A stretch of DNA of 46,954 bases from Telmatospirillum siberiense (GTDB lineage Bacteria > Pseudomonadota > Alphaproteobacteria > Rhodospirillales > Magnetospirillaceae): contig NZ_PIUM01000043.1 in the NCBI RefSeq assembly GCF_002845745.1, forward strand, positions 1 to 46,954, in the 5' to 3' direction. A program made the translations under genes and the position numbers. The notes below the pieces were generated by a model. It was not told where the DNA came from. It ran no database searches and saw nothing but the letters and a program-made list of their open reading frames with translations. Shown here piece by piece: positions 7,679 to 33,981 of the stretch (within the stretch, counting starts at the first letter, position 1; each line of letters opens with the position of its first letter).

Positions 7679-7789
7679 ACATATCCTCCCGTAGGGCACC
7701 CGGTAATAGGCCATCGCGATGTTTTGTAGGGAAACGTCGTTCGTGGATGTGGCTTTCGCTTGCCGGTGAAGATTAAGGGGCTAATCGCT

Positions 7790-10700
7790 ATGGTTTCGGC
7801 TATCTCGTCGTACAGCACTGCTCAAATCCAGAGTATGACGCTGACCGATATCCAAGGGCTGACGGCGACGGATATGGCGGCTCTGGCGACGACCCAGATC
7901 GACGCCCTGACCACCACGGAAATCACCGAGCTCAGCGCCACCCAGCTTTCCGAACTGTCGACACGCCAGGTATCGGCGCTGATGACCACCCAGATCGCCG
8001 CAATGACGTCTGGGCAAGTCGCCTTCAGCGCGGCTCAGCTGGCGGTTCTGAACATTACGCAGTTCGAAGCCTTCGGCACCGATGTGATCGCCAACCTGAC
8101 CAGCACCGAGATGAAGGGGCTGACGACCACCGAATTGGCCGCCCTGACGCCGGTCCAGTTCGCGGTCCTGGCATCGACCCAGCTCGCCAGTCTCAGCACC
8201 GCGCAGATGAAAGGCCTGACTTCCACCGAGATGGCTGCCATATCGGCGACGCAGCTGTCCGGTCTGGCGGCGACGCAGATCGGCGCCTTGACGACGACGG
8301 CGATGTCGGGAATGAGCGCCTCGATACTCGGCAACCTGACTTCCACGCAGCTTTCCGGCTTTGCGTCGACGCAGATCGCCTCCCTCTCCCTGGCGCAGCT
8401 TGCCGGAGTTACCGCAACGGAGATCGGCGAACTCGCCACCACGCAAATCATCGGCCTGACAGCCGACCAGTTGTCGTCCCTGGACAGCACGCAATTCGGC
8501 GCCCTGACCTCGACCCAGGTCGGCGCCCTGACAACCGCCCAGATCAAGGTGTTATCGACCACTCAGATCGCCTCCCTGACATCGACGCAATTCAGCGGTC
8601 TGACGGCGATCCAGATCGGAGCGCTGACCTCGGCCCTGTTCGGTGCGCTGGACACGGCCGAAGTCGGCGAGATGACCTCGACCCAGGTCAAGGGATTGAG
8701 CAGCACCGAGGTGGCGGCGCTGAGCACCACCCAACTCGGCGCCCTGACGCCCACCGAAATCGGAGCATTGACCCAGACGGCATTGGCCGGCTTGACCTCG
8801 ACGGAGATTGGCGCGCTGACCGCGGCGCAGTTGGGCGCCCTGGCCTCAACGCAGATAGCCGTCTTGTCGACGTCGGCCATAACGGGGTTGTCATCGACGC
8901 AGCTCGCGTCACTTTCGACAACCCAGCTTGGGGGCCTGAGCCAGGCGCAGATCGGCGTTCTGACGGTGACGCAATTCGGCGGTTTGAATACGACCGACAT
9001 CGGAGTGCTCACGACGACGCAGCTCAAGGCTTTGACGTCGACCGACGTTGGGGGCTTGACCTCGATACAGCTGGCCGCCTTGTCCGCCACTCAATTGGCG
9101 TCGCTGACGACGGCGGCGCTCTCCGGCCTGACCTCGACACAGCTGGGAAATCTGACATCGACGCAACTGGTCGCTCTGACGACCAGTCAGGTAGCGTCGC
9201 TGACGACCGGGCAGCTTGCGGGTTTGAGCTCGACGGAAGTCGGTGAACTGACCAATACGCAGGTTGCCAGCCTGACCGCCACGCAGCTGGCGGCCCTCGA
9301 TGCCACGCAATTCGGCGCTCTGAGCTCCACCCAGATCGGAGCATTGACGAGCGCGCAGGTCAAACTGTTGTCGACCACGCAGATCTCAACCCTGACCTCG
9401 ACGCAATTCGCCGGTCTGAGCTCTACCCAGATCGGAGCCTTGACCACGACATTGCTCGGTTCTCTGAATGCCGCCGAAATCGGCGAGATGACCTCGACCC
9501 AGATCAAGGGGTTGCTGGGCACCGAGGTGGCGGCTTTGAACGCGACGCAGATCGGCGCCTTGCAGTCCTCGGAAATCGCCGCGCTGACCCAGGCCGGCGT
9601 CGGTGGTTTGACGTCGACGGACCTAGGCCTTTTGACGACGGCGCAATTGGGTGGATTTACCGCGACTCAGTTGGCCTGGTTGTCGACGACGGCCCTTGGC
9701 GGATTGACGGCGACGCAGCTTCCCGATCTGACGACGACGCAGTTCTCCGGCCTGACGGCGACGCAAATCGGCAGCCTGACGGCGACGCAGATTGGCGGCT
9801 TGAGCACGACGGAGGTCAGTGCCTTGAGCGCGACGCAGATGAAGGGTCTGACCTCGACGGCGGTTGCGGCCTTGTCGGCGGCGCAGTTGGGGGTGGTGAC
9901 CTCGACCCAGTTATCGGCCCTGACGGTGACGGCCTTGGGCGGCCTGACCTCGACCTCGATCGGCAGCCTGGCGGCGACACAGCTTTCCGGCCTGGCGGCG
10001 ACGCAGATCGCCGGCCTGACGACGACGCAGCTGGGCGGCTTGACCGCGGTGGAAGTCGGTGAGCTGAGCAATACGCAGGTCGCCGGCCTGACCGCCACGC
10101 AACTGGCCGCACTCGATGCCACCCAGCTCGGCGCCTTGACGGCGACGCAGCTGGCAGCTCTCAGCGCGGCGCAGATCAAGACGCTGTCGAGCGCTCAGGT
10201 GACGTCGCTGACGACGACGCAATTCTCCGGCCTGACGGCGACCCAGTTGGGTTCGTTGAGCACGACGCAGATCGGAGGCTTAAGCGCGGCGGAGATCGGC
10301 GTCATGACGACGACGCAGGTCAAGGGATTGACGTCGAGCGAGATCGGGGCGCTGACCGGGGCGCAACTGGGGGCCTTGTCGCCGACCCAGTTGGGGGTTC
10401 TGAGCACGTCGGCGCTGGGTGGCCTGAACGCGACGGCGCTTTCCAATCTGACGACGACGCAACTGGGCGGCTTGACCTCGACCCAGTTGGCATCGCTGAC
10501 GACGACGCAACTGTCGGGCTTAAGCGCGACGGAAGTCTCCGATCTGACGACGACGCAGCTCGCCGGCTTGACGGCGTCCCAGCTGGGATCGGTCACGGCG
10601 ACGCAGATCGGCGGCTTGAGCACGACGGATGTCAGCGCCTTGAGCGCGACGCAAGTCAAGGGGTTGAGTTCGACGGCGGTGGCGGCCTTGTCGGCGGCGC

Positions 10701-13700
10701 AGTTGGGGGTGATGACCTCGACCCAGTTGGCGGCCCTGACGACGACGGCATTGGCCGGCCTGACCTCGACGCAGCTGTCGAGCTTGACGACGACGCAACT
10801 CGCCGGGTTGACGGCAACGCAGGCCGGCGGCCTGACGGCGACGCAGATTTCCGGCTTGAGCACGACGGATGTCAGTGCCTTGAGCGTGACGCAGATGAAG
10901 GGGCTGACCTCGACGGCGGTTGCGGCCCTGTCGGCGGCGCAGTTGGGGGTGGTGACCTCGACGCAGCTGGCGGCCCTGACGGTGACGGCCTTGGGCGGCC
11001 TGACCTCGACCTCGATCGGCAGCCTGGCGGCGACACAGCTTTCCGGTCTGGCGGCGACGCAGATCGCCGGCCTGACGACGACGCAGCTGGGCGGCTTGAC
11101 CGCGGTGGAAGTCGGTGAGCTGACCAATACGCAGGTCGCCGGCCTGACCGCCACGCAACTGGCCGCACTCGATGCCACCCAGCTCGGCGCCTTGACGGCG
11201 ACGCAGCTGGCGGCTCTCAGCGCGGCGCAGATCAAGACGCTGTCGAGCACTCAGGTGACGTCGCTGACGACGACGCAATTCTCCGGCCTGACGGCGACCC
11301 AGTTGGGTTCGTTGAGCACGACGCAGATCGGAGGCTTAAGCGCGGCGGAGATCGGCGTCATGACGACGACGCAGGTCAAGGGGTTGACGTCGAGCGAGAT
11401 CGGGGCGCTGACTGGGGCGCAACTGGGGGCCTTGTCACCGACCCAGCTGGGGGTTCTGAGCACGTCGGCGCTGGGCGGCCTGAACGCGACAGCGCTTTCC
11501 AATCTGACGACGACCCAGCTTGGCGGCTTGACCTCGACCCAGTTGGCATCGCTGACGACGACGCAGCTGTCGGGCTTAAGCGCGACGGAAGTCTCCGATC
11601 TGACGACGACGCAGCTCGCCGGCTTGACGGCGTCCCAGCTGGGATCGGTCACGGCGACGCAGATCGGCGGCTTGAGCACGACGGATGTCAGTGCCTTGAG
11701 CGTGACGCAGATGAAGGGGTTGACCTCGACGGCGGTGGCGGCCTTGTCCGCTGCGCAGCTGGGGGTGGTGACCTCGACGCAGCTGGCGGCCTTGACGACG
11801 ACGGCCTTGGCCGGCCTGACCTCGACGCAGCTGTCGAGCTTGACGACGACGCAACTCGCCGGGTTGACGGCAACGCAGGCCGGCGGCCTGACGGCGACGC
11901 AGATTTCCGGCTTGAGCACGACGGATGTCAGTGCCTTGAGCGTGACGCAGATGAAGGGGCTGACCTCGACGGCGGTTGCGGCCCTATCGGCGGCGCAGTT
12001 GGGGGTGGTGACCTCGACGCAGCTGGCGGCCCTGACGGTGACGGCCTTGGGCGGCCTGACCTCGACCTCGATCGGCAGTCTGGCGGCGACGCAGCTTTCC
12101 GGTCTGGCGGCGACGCAGATCGCCGGCCTGACGACGACGCAGCTGGGCGGCTTGACCGCGGTGGAAGTCGGTGAGCTGACCAATACGCAGGTCGCCGGCC
12201 TGACCGCCACGCAACTGGCCGCGCTCGATGCCACCCAGCTCGGCGCCTTGACGGCGACGCAGCTGGCGGCTCTCAGCGCGGCGCAGATCAAGACGCTGTC
12301 GAGCACTCAGGTGACGTCGCTGACGACGACGCAATTCTCCGGCCTGACGGCGACCCAGTTGGGTTCGTTGAGCACGACGCAGATCGGAGGCTTAAGCGCG
12401 GCGGAGATCGGCGTCATGACGACGACGCAGGTCAAGGGGTTGACGTCGAGCGAGATCGGGGCGCTGACCGGGGCGCAACTGGGGGCCTTGTCACCGACCC
12501 AGCTGGGGGTCCTGAGCACGTCCGCACTGGGCGGCCTGAACGCGACGGCGCTTTCCAATCTGACGACGACGCAACTGGGCGGCTTGACCTCGACCCAGTT
12601 GGCATCGCTGACGACGACGCAACTGTCGGGCTTAAGCGCGACGGAAGTCTCCGATCTGACGACGACGCAGCTCGCCGGCTTGACGGCGTCCCAGCTGGGA
12701 TCGGTCACGGCGACGCAGATCGGCGGCTTGAGCACGACGGATGTCAGTGCCTTGAGCGCGACGCAGATGAAGGGGCTGACCTCGACGGCGGTGGCGGCCT
12801 TGTCCGCTGCGCAGTTGGGGGTGGTGACCTCGACGCAGTTGGCGGCCTTGACGGTGACGGCCTTGGGCGGCCTGACCTCGACCTCGATCGGCAGCCTGGC
12901 GGCGACGCAGCTTTCCGGTCTGGCGGCGACGCAGATCTCCGGCCTGACGACGACGCAGATGGGCGGCCTGACCACGACGGAAGTCGGCGAACTGACCAAT
13001 ACGCAGCTTCTTGGGCTGACGGGCACACAACTATCGTCGTTGGCGGGAACTCAATTGGCGGCGTTGGCCTCGTCGCAGTTGGCCGTATTGACGACAGCGC
13101 AGATCAAGACCTTGTCCGCGAGCCAGATCGGCGCCTTGACGACGACCCAGCTCGGCGGCCTGACCGCCACTCAGCTGGGGGCTTTGACGACGACGGAGAT
13201 CGCGGGCTTGAGTACGGTGGAAATCGGCTCGCTGAACGGCACTCAATTGAAAGGCCTGACCGGAACGGAACTCGTCAATTTAACGACAACCCAGCTCGCG
13301 GCCTTGTCGGCAACGCAGATCGGAGGACTGACGACAACGGCGGTGGGAGGGTTGACCGCGACGGTGGTCGCCGATTTGACGACGACCCAGCTTGGCGGCC
13401 TGACCTCGTCTCAGATGGCGTCGCTGACAACGACGGCGTTGTCCGGTCTGACGGCGACGCAAATCGGTGATTTGACGGCAACCCAGCTCGGTGGTTTGAC
13501 GGCAACGCAGATCAGCGCCATCGGCGCGACGCAGATCGGTGGATTGAACACCACGGCGATCAGCGGGTTGACCGTCACCCAGATCAAAGGCATGAGCAGT
13601 ACCGAAGTCGGCAGTTTGGCTGCGACCCAGCTCGGGGCCTTGTCGGCAACCCAGATCGGGGCGTTGACCACCACCGCATTGGGCGGCCTGACCTCGACCC

Positions 13701-14953
13701 AGGTCGGTGATTTGACGGTCACCCAGCTCGCCGGCCTGACGGCCACTCAAATGGCCGCATTGGCCGCGACTCAGCTCGCCGGTTTCAGTACGACGGACGT
13801 TGCAGCCTTGAGCGGTACCCAGATCAAGGGACTGGTCAGCAGCGAAGTGGCCAATCTGACGGCGACGCAACTCGCGGCCCTGAGCTCGGCACAGCTTGGT
13901 GCCCTGACCACGGCGGCATTGGGCGGCCTCAGCGCGACGGCGATCGCTGGTTTGACGACGACGCAGCTGGGGGGGCTGACCTCCTCGCAGATCACCGCCT
14001 TGACGACCGCGCAGCTTTCCGGACTGGACGCCACCGACGTCGGCGCCTTGGCCAATACGCAGATCACCGCTCTGAGCTTGACCCAACTGGGCGCACTGAC
14101 GGCGACACAATTCGGAGCGCTGACGGCGACACAGCTCGGAGCCATGAGCGTCGTACAGATCAAGGAATTGTCTTCCAGCCAGGTTTCCTTGCTGACATCG
14201 ACGCAACTTACCGGCCTGACGATGACGCAGATCAGTGCCCTTACCACGTCACAGCTCGGCGCTTTGTCGACGACGGACGTCGCCACTTTGTCGACCACCC
14301 AGGTCAAGGGACTGGCGGCAACGGGCGTTGCGGCTCTTTCGACGACACAGATCGGCGTCTTGTCGCCAACCCAGATGGGAGCCCTGAGCACGGCGGCGTT
14401 GACGGGTCTGACCGCCGCCCAGATCGCCGCTCTGAGCATCACGCAATTGAGTGGTTTCACGGCCACGCAGGTAGGGGTGTTGACGTCGACGGAACTCGGG
14501 GCTCTGACGACGGCCGACATCTCGGCGATGACTGTTACTCAGTTGGCCGGCTTGGTGAAGGCGCAACTGAATGCCCTGTCCACGGCTCAATTGGACTCCC
14601 TGGGGACCACCCAGATCGCGTCGTTGTCCAGCACGCAGCTTAACGGCCTGACGACGACGGCGATCGACGCTTTGACGACGACGCAAATTACCGCCTTGAC
14701 GCCGTCCCAGATCAGTTCCCTGGCCACGACCGAGCTCAACAGTCTCACGTCCAGCGAAATCGCCGCCTTGACGACGGCTCAGATCAGCAGCCTGAAGACG
14801 TCGCAGATCGCCAATTTGTCGACCACCACTCTCAGTGCCTTGACGACGACCGAGATCGGGGCTTTGAGCAGCACCCAGGCCCATGCCTTGACCGATACCC
14901 AGATCGTCAGCATGACGACCCAGCAGTTTTCCGCACTGAAAAGCGTCTGGTGA
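7790..14953 (+). CDS. Giant octapeptide-repeat protein (2387 aa)
   Basis: The protein is almost wholly a tandem octad, [ST]-x-[TAS]-[QE]-[LIV]-x-x-L, repeated about 298 times. Composition is extreme: Leu, Thr, Ala, Gly, Ser and Gln dominate, no cysteine was seen, one arginine near the start, and rare Lys, Asp and Glu. The only non-repeat parts are about 10 residues at the N-terminus and the last few residues, ending in SVW. One octad near residue 75 is a residue short. There is no signal peptide, membrane segment or catalytic motif. S/T-x-x-Q/E resembles a helix N-cap box, so each octad may be a short capped helical turn in a long solenoid; this is inference. Relatives may exist as 'beta strand repeat' or surface proteins in other alphaproteobacteria. 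The ATG at 7790 follows AAGGGG by 9 bases; a TTG at 7760 in frame is less likely. Function unknown; a surface or secreted fibre is the leading guess. Confidence 0.85.
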   Translation: MVSAISSYSTAQIQSMTLTDIQGLTATDMAALATTQIDALTTTEITELSATQLSELSTRQVSALMTTQIAAMTSGQVAFSAAQLAVLNITQFEAFGTDVIANLTSTEMKGLTTTELAALTPVQFAVLASTQLASLSTAQMKGLTSTEMAAISATQLSGLAATQIGALTTTAMSGMSASILGNLTSTQLSGFASTQIASLSLAQLAGVTATEIGELATTQIIGLTADQLSSLDSTQFGALTSTQVGALTTAQIKVLSTTQIASLTSTQFSGLTAIQIGALTSALFGALDTAEVGEMTSTQVKGLSSTEVAALSTTQLGALTPTEIGALTQTALAGLTSTEIGALTAAQLGALASTQIAVLSTSAITGLSSTQLASLSTTQLGGLSQAQIGVLTVTQFGGLNTTDIGVLTTTQLKALTSTDVGGLTSIQLAALSATQLASLTTAALSGLTSTQLGNLTSTQLVALTTSQVASLTTGQLAGLSSTEVGELTNTQVASLTATQLAALDATQFGALSSTQIGALTSAQVKLLSTTQISTLTSTQFAGLSSTQIGALTTTLLGSLNAAEIGEMTSTQIKGLLGTEVAALNATQIGALQSSEIAALTQAGVGGLTSTDLGLLTTAQLGGFTATQLAWLSTTALGGLTATQLPDLTTTQFSGLTATQIGSLTATQIGGLSTTEVSALSATQMKGLTSTAVAALSAAQLGVVTSTQLSALTVTALGGLTSTSIGSLAATQLSGLAATQIAGLTTTQLGGLTAVEVGELSNTQVAGLTATQLAALDATQLGALTATQLAALSAAQIKTLSSAQVTSLTTTQFSGLTATQLGSLSTTQIGGLSAAEIGVMTTTQVKGLTSSEIGALTGAQLGALSPTQLGVLSTSALGGLNATALSNLTTTQLGGLTSTQLASLTTTQLSGLSATEVSDLTTTQLAGLTASQLGSVTATQIGGLSTTDVSALSATQVKGLSSTAVAALSAAQLGVMTSTQLAALTTTALAGLTSTQLSSLTTTQLAGLTATQAGGLTATQISGLSTTDVSALSVTQMKGLTSTAVAALSAAQLGVVTSTQLAALTVTALGGLTSTSIGSLAATQLSGLAATQIAGLTTTQLGGLTAVEVGELTNTQVAGLTATQLAALDATQLGALTATQLAALSAAQIKTLSSTQVTSLTTTQFSGLTATQLGSLSTTQIGGLSAAEIGVMTTTQVKGLTSSEIGALTGAQLGALSPTQLGVLSTSALGGLNATALSNLTTTQLGGLTSTQLASLTTTQLSGLSATEVSDLTTTQLAGLTASQLGSVTATQIGGLSTTDVSALSVTQMKGLTSTAVAALSAAQLGVVTSTQLAALTTTALAGLTSTQLSSLTTTQLAGLTATQAGGLTATQISGLSTTDVSALSVTQMKGLTSTAVAALSAAQLGVVTSTQLAALTVTALGGLTSTSIGSLAATQLSGLAATQIAGLTTTQLGGLTAVEVGELTNTQVAGLTATQLAALDATQLGALTATQLAALSAAQIKTLSSTQVTSLTTTQFSGLTATQLGSLSTTQIGGLSAAEIGVMTTTQVKGLTSSEIGALTGAQLGALSPTQLGVLSTSALGGLNATALSNLTTTQLGGLTSTQLASLTTTQLSGLSATEVSDLTTTQLAGLTASQLGSVTATQIGGLSTTDVSALSATQMKGLTSTAVAALSAAQLGVVTSTQLAALTVTALGGLTSTSIGSLAATQLSGLAATQISGLTTTQMGGLTTTEVGELTNTQLLGLTGTQLSSLAGTQLAALASSQLAVLTTAQIKTLSASQIGALTTTQLGGLTATQLGALTTTEIAGLSTVEIGSLNGTQLKGLTGTELVNLTTTQLAALSATQIGGLTTTAVGGLTATVVADLTTTQLGGLTSSQMASLTTTALSGLTATQIGDLTATQLGGLTATQISAIGATQIGGLNTTAISGLTVTQIKGMSSTEVGSLAATQLGALSATQIGALTTTALGGLTSTQVGDLTVTQLAGLTATQMAALAATQLAGFSTTDVAALSGTQIKGLVSSEVANLTATQLAALSSAQLGALTTAALGGLSATAIAGLTTTQLGGLTSSQITALTTAQLSGLDATDVGALANTQITALSLTQLGALTATQFGALTATQLGAMSVVQIKELSSSQVSLLTSTQLTGLTMTQISALTTSQLGALSTTDVATLSTTQVKGLAATGVAALSTTQIGVLSPTQMGALSTAALTGLTAAQIAALSITQLSGFTATQVGVLTSTELGALTTADISAMTVTQLAGLVKAQLNALSTAQLDSLGTTQIASLSSTQLNGLTTTAIDALTTTQITALTPSQISSLATTELNSLTSSEIAALTTAQISSLKTSQIANLSTTTLSALTTTEIGALSSTQAHALTDTQIVSMTTQQFSALKSVW
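9827..12754. repeat. Higher-order tandem repeat inside the giant gene (1056/1056/816 bp)
   Basis: The octad region contains near-identical long tandem units: 9827-10882 and 10883-11938 (each 1056 bp, 44 octads), then 11939-12754 (816 bp, 34 octads). The 44-octad unit equals the 34-octad unit plus an extra 10-octad (240-bp) block. A fourth copy begins at 12755 and decays near 13000. An older, diverged 34-octad period is visible upstream between the DTAEVGEM and NAAEIGEM octads. This indicates recent unequal recombination, so length may vary between strains and assembly here may be unreliable. Confidence 0.85.
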
Positions 14954-33675: not shown

Positions 33676-33981
33676 GCCCCGAAGCTTTAGCGGAGGCAGC
33701 CAAGGTGGACGGATGTCCACCGCCCGGCGCCTGAGGGACACCAATTTAAACCGGGGCATGCGGGTTTGCCGCTTGCCCCGAAGCTTTAGCGGAGGCAGCC
33801 AAGGTGGACGGATGTCCACCGCCCGGCGCCTGAGGGACACCAATTTAAACCGGGGCATGCGGGTTTGCCGCTTGCCCCGAAGCTTTAGCGGAGGCAGCCA
33901 AGGTGGACGGATGTCCACCGCCCGGCGCCTGAGGGACACCAATTTAAACCGGGGCAAGCGGGTTTTCCGCTTGCCCCGGGA
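33676..33981. repeat. Three 99-bp tandem intergenic repeats
   Basis: Units begin at 33676, 33775 and 33874 and are nearly identical. Each contains a GGTGGAC/GTCCACC hairpin with a GGAT loop. The unit ends in an imperfect hairpin in copies 1 and 2, and in copy 3 in a perfect 13-bp stem (33949-33961 with 33967-33979). Because 99 is divisible by three, both strands stay open and give artificial 33-residue repeat proteins. The element fills most of the 594-bp gap between the TPR gene and mntH. Confidence 0.85.

Follow-up and report, generated by a model that had tools for sequence, protein, structure and literature searches.

The 46,954-nucleotide stretch of Telmatospirillum siberiense DNA analysed here (contig NZ_PIUM01000043.1, referred to as the window) carries a gene for a giant protein built of eight-residue repeats (octads) of the ALTTAQ family. 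The same genome encodes a second octad giant, and a GT41 glycosyltransferase gene adjoins the gene of this paralogue. In part of the relatives, octad genes are likewise linked to GT41 genes or to genes of type I secretion systems (T1SS). The paralogue with its adjoining GT41, both missed by an earlier note on this DNA, and the GT41 link in part of the relatives are reported here for the first time.

The reading preferred here, held at just under even chances, is that the window protein is an exported helix-screw rod whose Thr/Ser residues receive O-linked sugars in the cytoplasm, the paralogue-linked GT41 serving as the enzyme in trans. For a repeat family that had been named and left unexplained, the analysis supplies a fold prediction and a candidate partner enzyme open to testing.

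The octad array and its predicted fold

The open reading frame at positions 7790–14953 of the plus strand encodes 2387 residues from an ATG start, with zero internal stops. The sequence AAGGGG is located upstream, its end 9 bases before the start codon, and an in-frame TTG at 7760 is a possible alternative start. The protein matched Pfam PF20080, ‘ALTTAQ repeat’ (ALTTAQ_rpt), with an E value of 1.3e-249 and 806 bits against a cut-off of 26.4, over 86 stretches. It is a member of this family, with no difference found, and the Pfam output provides a name without a function. Zero NCBIfam families matched the protein. In the parts seen of the literature searched, outside which preprints and most subscription papers lay, no function for the repeat and no account of such a system were found. 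The earlier note, which knew no assigned function for the repeat, overlooked the existing name.

Parsing of the protein by dynamic programming yielded 297 octads, 7 out-of-register residues (aa 73–79) and 4 C-terminal residues. The giant octapeptide array proposed earlier was thus recovered as an intact frame with a period of 8, with one octad fewer than the approximately 298 given. The frequency of same-residue matches peaked at lags 8 and 16 (0.40 and 0.43, respectively), every other lag between 1 and 15 giving 0.06–0.11. Position 3 was T in 220 of the 297 octads and position 8 was L in 267; at position 4, Q occurred in 203 and A in 32. The motif suggested before, [ST]-x-[TAS]-[QE]-[LIV]-x-x-L, does not cover the alanines at position 4. 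Two further statements of the earlier note were confirmed. Charged residues are few (111/2387, 4.7%, net −53) and cysteine is absent, and Pfam found no other domain; the only other model above its cut-off for the whole protein was LRR_EndoS, yet without a significant stretch. Serine and threonine together account for 768 of the 2387 residues, a figure of composition alone that bears on a mucin-like comparison.

All parts of the array lie on the plus strand. Octads 1–9 (positions 7790–8005) open with MVSAISSYSTAQI, which is similar to the start of various relatives, e.g. MTSIISSLSANQI. They are followed by the seven residues TSGQVAF outside the octad register (8006–8026), and a similar break could be read by eye in the paralogue. 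The remaining 288 octads run uninterrupted from 8027 to 14938, ahead of the C-terminal tail KSVW (14939–14950), which reads QGVW in the frame of a congener. Between approximately 9800 and 12900, a 1056-bp (44-octad) block is repeated in tandem about three times, the copies being mostly 95–99% identical when compared in 200-base steps. Because of this tandem repetition, the assembled gene length is less certain than the frame; the copies represent either a recent expansion or an assembly-sensitive stretch. Elsewhere in the window (33676–33978), a 99-bp unit in about three tandem copies of 99% identity was observed between two plus-strand ORFs.

The octad frame of the congener (genome G002, contig C128), which is cut there by the contig end, aligned without gaps to the last 277 codons. 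Conservation was highest at positions 8 (89%) and 4 (83%), and reached 41% at position 6. Since the alignment is gap-free and positions 4 and 8 are preferentially kept, the array is more than a product of chance.

AlphaFold was run on residues 80–319 with an alignment to six further stretches of this protein. The resulting model (pLDDT 91.5, pTM 0.81) contained 30 helices in 240 residues, arranged as a solenoid in which, nearly always, position 1 of the octad was coil, positions 2–6 helix and positions 7–8 coil. For residues 1–200, modelled from three rows, a similar fold was obtained with pLDDT 85.6, two of the five models being below 60; here a single longer helix (aa 58–73) preceded and adjoined the register break. 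The 2387-aa protein is accordingly predicted by the model to be a rod to which every octad contributes a single helix of about 5 residues. S/T at position 1 would cap each helix and Q/E at position 4 would close this cap; the core would consist of L/I (positions 5 and 8), and Thr/Ser/Ala/Gly at positions 2, 3, 6 and 7 would face outward. The 297 predicted short helices could then stack into a long solenoid.

Among solved chains, the closest in sequence was PDB 9zem, named HeliScrew4 by its depositors (E 8.8e-15). It aligned octad to octad over chain residues 2–113, with one gap only, near the end. In contrast to the window protein, HeliScrew4 comprises 120 aa instead of 2387 and carries Pro/Glu/Lys/Asp where the window protein has Thr/Ser/Ala. 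No paper on HeliScrew was found in the portions of the literature seen. Short N-capped helices and a rod had been envisaged before, and both the modelled octad pattern and the octad match to HeliScrew4 argue for them. In a Foldseek search with the model, 9zem was absent from the best 50 of 261 matches; the best among those listed was mesothelin, with a TM score of 0.38 or less, and a mesothelin-type fold was rejected.

Several other identities were also discarded. Leucine-rich repeats span 20–30 residues and contain beta strands, and such a protein was ruled out by the period of 8 and the all-helical model. An ice-nucleation protein, a label borne by relatives in public records, was rejected because no such Pfam match was obtained; the three families that appeared, with E values up to 1, were others. 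HemolysinCabind repeats of RTX proteins were not matched in the Pfam search, and phage records contained no match that would indicate phage origin. Octad genes appear in some public plasmid records under the names ‘heme utilization protein’, ‘ICE nucleation protein’ or ‘large exoprotein involved in heme utilization or adhesion’, to none of which a Pfam match of the window protein corresponds.

The paralogue, the adjoining glycosyltransferase and the neighbourhood of the window gene

The second octad giant of the genome (6.2 Mb, 81 contigs) comprises 4209 aa and is encoded on contig C27. A 677-aa TPR + Glyco_transf_41 protein (E 3.7e-85) is encoded 21 bases downstream on the same strand. This protein is related to O-GlcNAc transferases whose structures have been solved (6e-82) and has the make-up of a GT41 O-glycosyltransferase: TPRs, the Glyco_transf_41 domain and the conserved Lys and His. 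GT41 matches were also located on five further contigs of the genome, and the three included in the tree described below lie outside the ALTTAQ-adjacent clade.

Octads were present in four of the five genomes of the genus searched, and in all four a GT41 gene adjoined one octad gene. The same arrangement was observed in two Rhizobium genomes. In genome G004, contig C232, a protein with DUF4214 and a pre-peptidase C-terminal domain and then a TPR protein (L041:4789–8262) are encoded beside an octad gene; no GT41 match was obtained in that stretch.

Ten neighbours of the window gene, up to 21.4 kb of the window, were scanned. Upstream, the minus strand encodes a 190-aa protein without a family, an alpha/beta hydrolase, a DUF3422 protein, a LysR regulator and malic enzyme. 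Downstream, a GntR/FCD regulator and an oligopeptide ABC transporter are encoded on the plus strand. The GT41 bait found no GT41 in the window, and the T1SS bait no T1SS-type exporter near the gene, giving weak matches only to ABC ATPases of this peptide transporter. The downstream peptide-transporter operon was also conserved in the congener G002 (C128). There, about 5 kb with ABC ATPase and permease frames (L042:5534–10611) separate the octad frame from this operon.

The proportions of S/T at octad positions 2/3 were 0.53/0.82 in the window protein and 0.57/0.84 in the GT41-linked paralogue. Because of this similar make-up, the window protein is proposed as a substrate in trans of the C27 enzyme, which would thus act beyond the 4209-aa product encoded beside it.

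Linkage to glycosyltransferase and export genes among relatives

In a class sample of 241 genomes, octads were found in 6 and GT41 (E 1e-20) in 77. In four genomes, the own genome included, the best GT41 reached 50% identity or more with the C27 enzyme; all four were among the six octad genomes and carried an octad gene no more than a few kb from the GT41. A larger draw of 385 class genomes returned the same six. In a phylum sample of 398 genomes, octads occurred in 21, of which 16 belong to one family, f197. GT41 was present at four and T1SS at two of nine class-sample loci; at 15 phylum-sample loci the counts were five for GT41 (one partial), five for T1SS ABC and seven for either.

When stretches were collected by their octads, GT41 was read at 9 of 24 loci and T1SS ABC at 7; either was present at 11 and neither at 13, and 15 had no GT41. 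Against a background of 3%, the GT41 count corresponds to P 1.7e-8, uncorrected for kinship. Six GT41 contig places in 6.2 Mb would correspond to about 2% per 20 kb. The tally includes five loci (G558, two of G442, G459 and G488) that the motif filter scored without an octad-rich frame; by tblastn, four of them contain long octad genes, and the fifth yielded a match of 253 residues. Genome G125 was counted despite failing the filter, and the octad gene of L080, missed at its first setting, was detected by Pfam and tblastn. Several phylum loci end at contig ends, and on one side of the lone G174 gene the flank extends over only about 1 kb.

Two of the five phylum-sample GT41s, found without a GT41 bait, were nearest to clade members (G722, 72%; G704, 53%). 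The three from f197 were nearest to control rows, and the enzyme may therefore have been recruited more than once. Within f197 (16 genomes, two genera), octad stretches were observed in open frames of up to 5692–6436 aa; T1SS ABC was present at four of the loci read and GT41 at three.

No octads were detected at 20 control GT41 loci, either by motif or by tblastn with five octad proteins. The controls were some of the class-sample GT41 rows below the linked ones, and several of their stretches are contig-cut. They show that GT41s outside the clade go without octads; 19 of the 20 control genomes had no octads anywhere in the class-sample search, so that only G174 tests adjacency within a genome.

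Among plasmids, 59 octad records were obtained, three of them doubtful (Spiroplasma, Nostoc and Streptococcus suis). Counted by reading, GT41 was located within about 10 kb in 26 (11 of these from Cereibacter sphaeroides), one had a distant GT41 only, and 32 had none among the top 60 rows of each of two GT41 searches (97 and 98 records). Strain 2.4.1 of Cereibacter sphaeroides carries both an octad gene and GT41 on its plasmid. The best 14 rows of the GT41 search with the C27-type enzyme and the best 16 with the Cereibacter-type enzyme all had octads nearby.

In a tree of 49 GT41 rows, from which two duplicate L086 frames were excluded, all 23 ALTTAQ-adjacent rows formed one clade (100/100) with two subclades. 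The adjacency label changed once, compared to 16.5 times in shuffles. Rows of the clade had entered the set as neighbours of octad genes or through their similarity to the enzymes of C27 and Cereibacter, and among the 49 rows treed no non-adjacent row fell within the clade. The Niveispirillum-type and Pseudoroseomonas loci carry one GT41 from each subclade. The OGT-type Lys and His columns were kept in 23/23 clade members.

This restriction of the clade to ALTTAQ-adjacent rows weighs against an alternative in which the rod is exported without sugars, the GT41 neighbours act on other targets (flagellin or surface sugars), and the linkage stems from islands common to surface genes. The flagellin bait was also negative in the stretches of Cereibacter, two Pseudomonas, Niveispirillum, G174, the window’s genus and seven other Rhizobiaceae loci. 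Such an alternative does draw on the GT41 genes located among flagellins in Shinella PSBB067 and Pseudorhizobium flavum, on two control GT41s (L084 and L094) that are near flagellins too, and on FlmG, which modifies flagellins in Caulobacter (PMC7591256). Composition is on its side as well: S/T at positions 2+3 had a median of 1.11 in GT41-adjacent proteins (n = 26) compared to 0.91 in the others (n = 14), a difference that was not significant (p 0.061, uncorrected for kinship). Taken together, we regard an unglycosylated rod as rather unlikely.

For the composition comparison, one frame each was used for P. asturiensis, Pseudoroseomonas, R. rhizoryzae and L033. The octad protein of Shinella PSBB067, encoded beside a clade GT41 and among flagellins, is charged (20%) and poor in S/T (0.16/0.21). 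The second octad protein of Niveispirillum (G149), where the enzymes are present, is also S/T-poor (0.30/0.33). Both proteins, like the non-significant composition difference, the majority of loci lacking GT41 and the window gene without linked GT41 or T1SS, speak against the preferred reading.

Genes of sugar metabolism were found at some loci: UDP-galactopyranose mutase close to GT41 in several Rhizobiaceae, dTDP-rhamnose genes and sulfotransferases in Cereibacter, UDP-glucuronate decarboxylase at the Pseudoroseomonas locus and GDP-mannose dehydratase at one Pseudomonas locus. In R. daejeonense and ACO-34A, GT41 and an octad gene occur with no such sugar genes directly adjoining. If the preferred reading of a glycosylated rod is right, the TPR + GT41 enzymes of the octad-associated clade would glycosylate exposed Thr/Ser ahead of export.

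Octad genes have T1SS genes next to them in Cereibacter (ABC and HlyD in strain MBTLJ-20), Pseudomonas asturiensis, Pseudoroseomonas, another Pseudomonas and two Niveispirillum-type genomes, and, in the phylum sample, in G722, G423, G414, G449 and G452. No such adjacency was found at the window gene or in the C27 stretch (L009), and in the stretches tested from the window’s genus neither T1SS nor flagellar genes lie beside octad genes. The own genome encodes two T1SS-type ABC proteins elsewhere, 40% identical to the linked type. Seven peptidase-like N termini, examined by eye, had no Cys at the expected catalytic place, as would be in keeping with substrates that stay uncleaved. Four T1SS-linked octad proteins from Alphaproteobacteria were compared and share the ending [AS]LF[LM]; those of Pseudomonas type and of G722 have a non-octad C-terminal segment, and those of f197 end otherwise.

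Flagellar genes were located beside ALTTAQ and GT41 genes in Rhodovastum (FlhB, FliR, FlhA, FliQ, FliE, FlgC, FlgG and the FliI/YscN ATPase), Pseudorhizobium flavum (FlgE and two flagellins) and Shinella PSBB067 (flagellins and MotB). These neighbours would suit a rod exported by the flagellar type III system that decorates or measures flagella. They amount to three loci only, the others having been checked with the flagellin bait and not for every flagellar gene; T1SS ABC is present instead at 7 of the 24 tally loci, and no flagellar protein was among those scanned near the window or C27 gene. A flagellum-associated rod is therefore considered improbable.

No signal peptide or anchor was seen in the 2387-aa protein and no exporter adjoins its gene, as would suit a non-exported intracellular scaffold. 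Against this speak the T1SS linkage in several lineages and a 1140-aa protein of G125 (L071:9568–12990), flanked by ORFs of 2502 and 1070 aa, that combines ALTTAQ with Cadherin_4 domains; we consider the scaffold improbable. The T1SS neighbours in some relatives and the Cadherin_4 domains of G125 are consistent with a surface fibre or matrix.

For the exported, glycosylated rod, the neighbours point to export without a Sec signal, possibly through a type I system in several lineages and perhaps through the flagellar exporter in a few. The product could be a glycan-bearing surface or matrix fibre serving adhesion, spacing or hydration.

A wider generalization, possible but doubtful, is that ALTTAQ proteins are bacterial ‘mucins’ on a new kind of scaffold: rods of ultrashort helices by the hundred, each offering Thr/Ser to GT41 enzymes from the associated clade, glycosylated in the cytoplasm, exported by type I or flagellar systems and forming a glycan coat on the surface, with one enzyme serving several giants per genome, the window protein included. 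Should the glycosylated rod prove right, it would represent a simple modular glycorod: the exposed positions of its 8-residue unit would accept sugars, a dedicated glycosyltransferase would accompany it, and several lineages would provide a dedicated exporter as well. Bacterial TPR-GT41 enzymes would then have a second substrate class besides flagellin.

Comparison with known systems

LapA-type adhesins exported by T1SS are giant repetitive products. The octad proteins resemble them in this respect and in the T1SS neighbours of several lineages, whereas the window protein has no RTX match and its gene no linked T1SS.

HMW1C is reported to be the dedicated glycosyltransferase of the large exported adhesin HMW1 (PMC3012730). 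The likeness lies in a dedicated glycosyltransferase for a large exported protein; HMW1, however, is modified by N-linkage and uses two-partner secretion.

A likeness is also apparent to FlmG and flagellin of Caulobacter (PMC7591256). There, a soluble TPR + GT-B enzyme performs cytoplasmic O-glycosylation of a substrate exported without Sec. In contrast, the substrate proposed here is an octad rod, and the exporter would often be a type I system.
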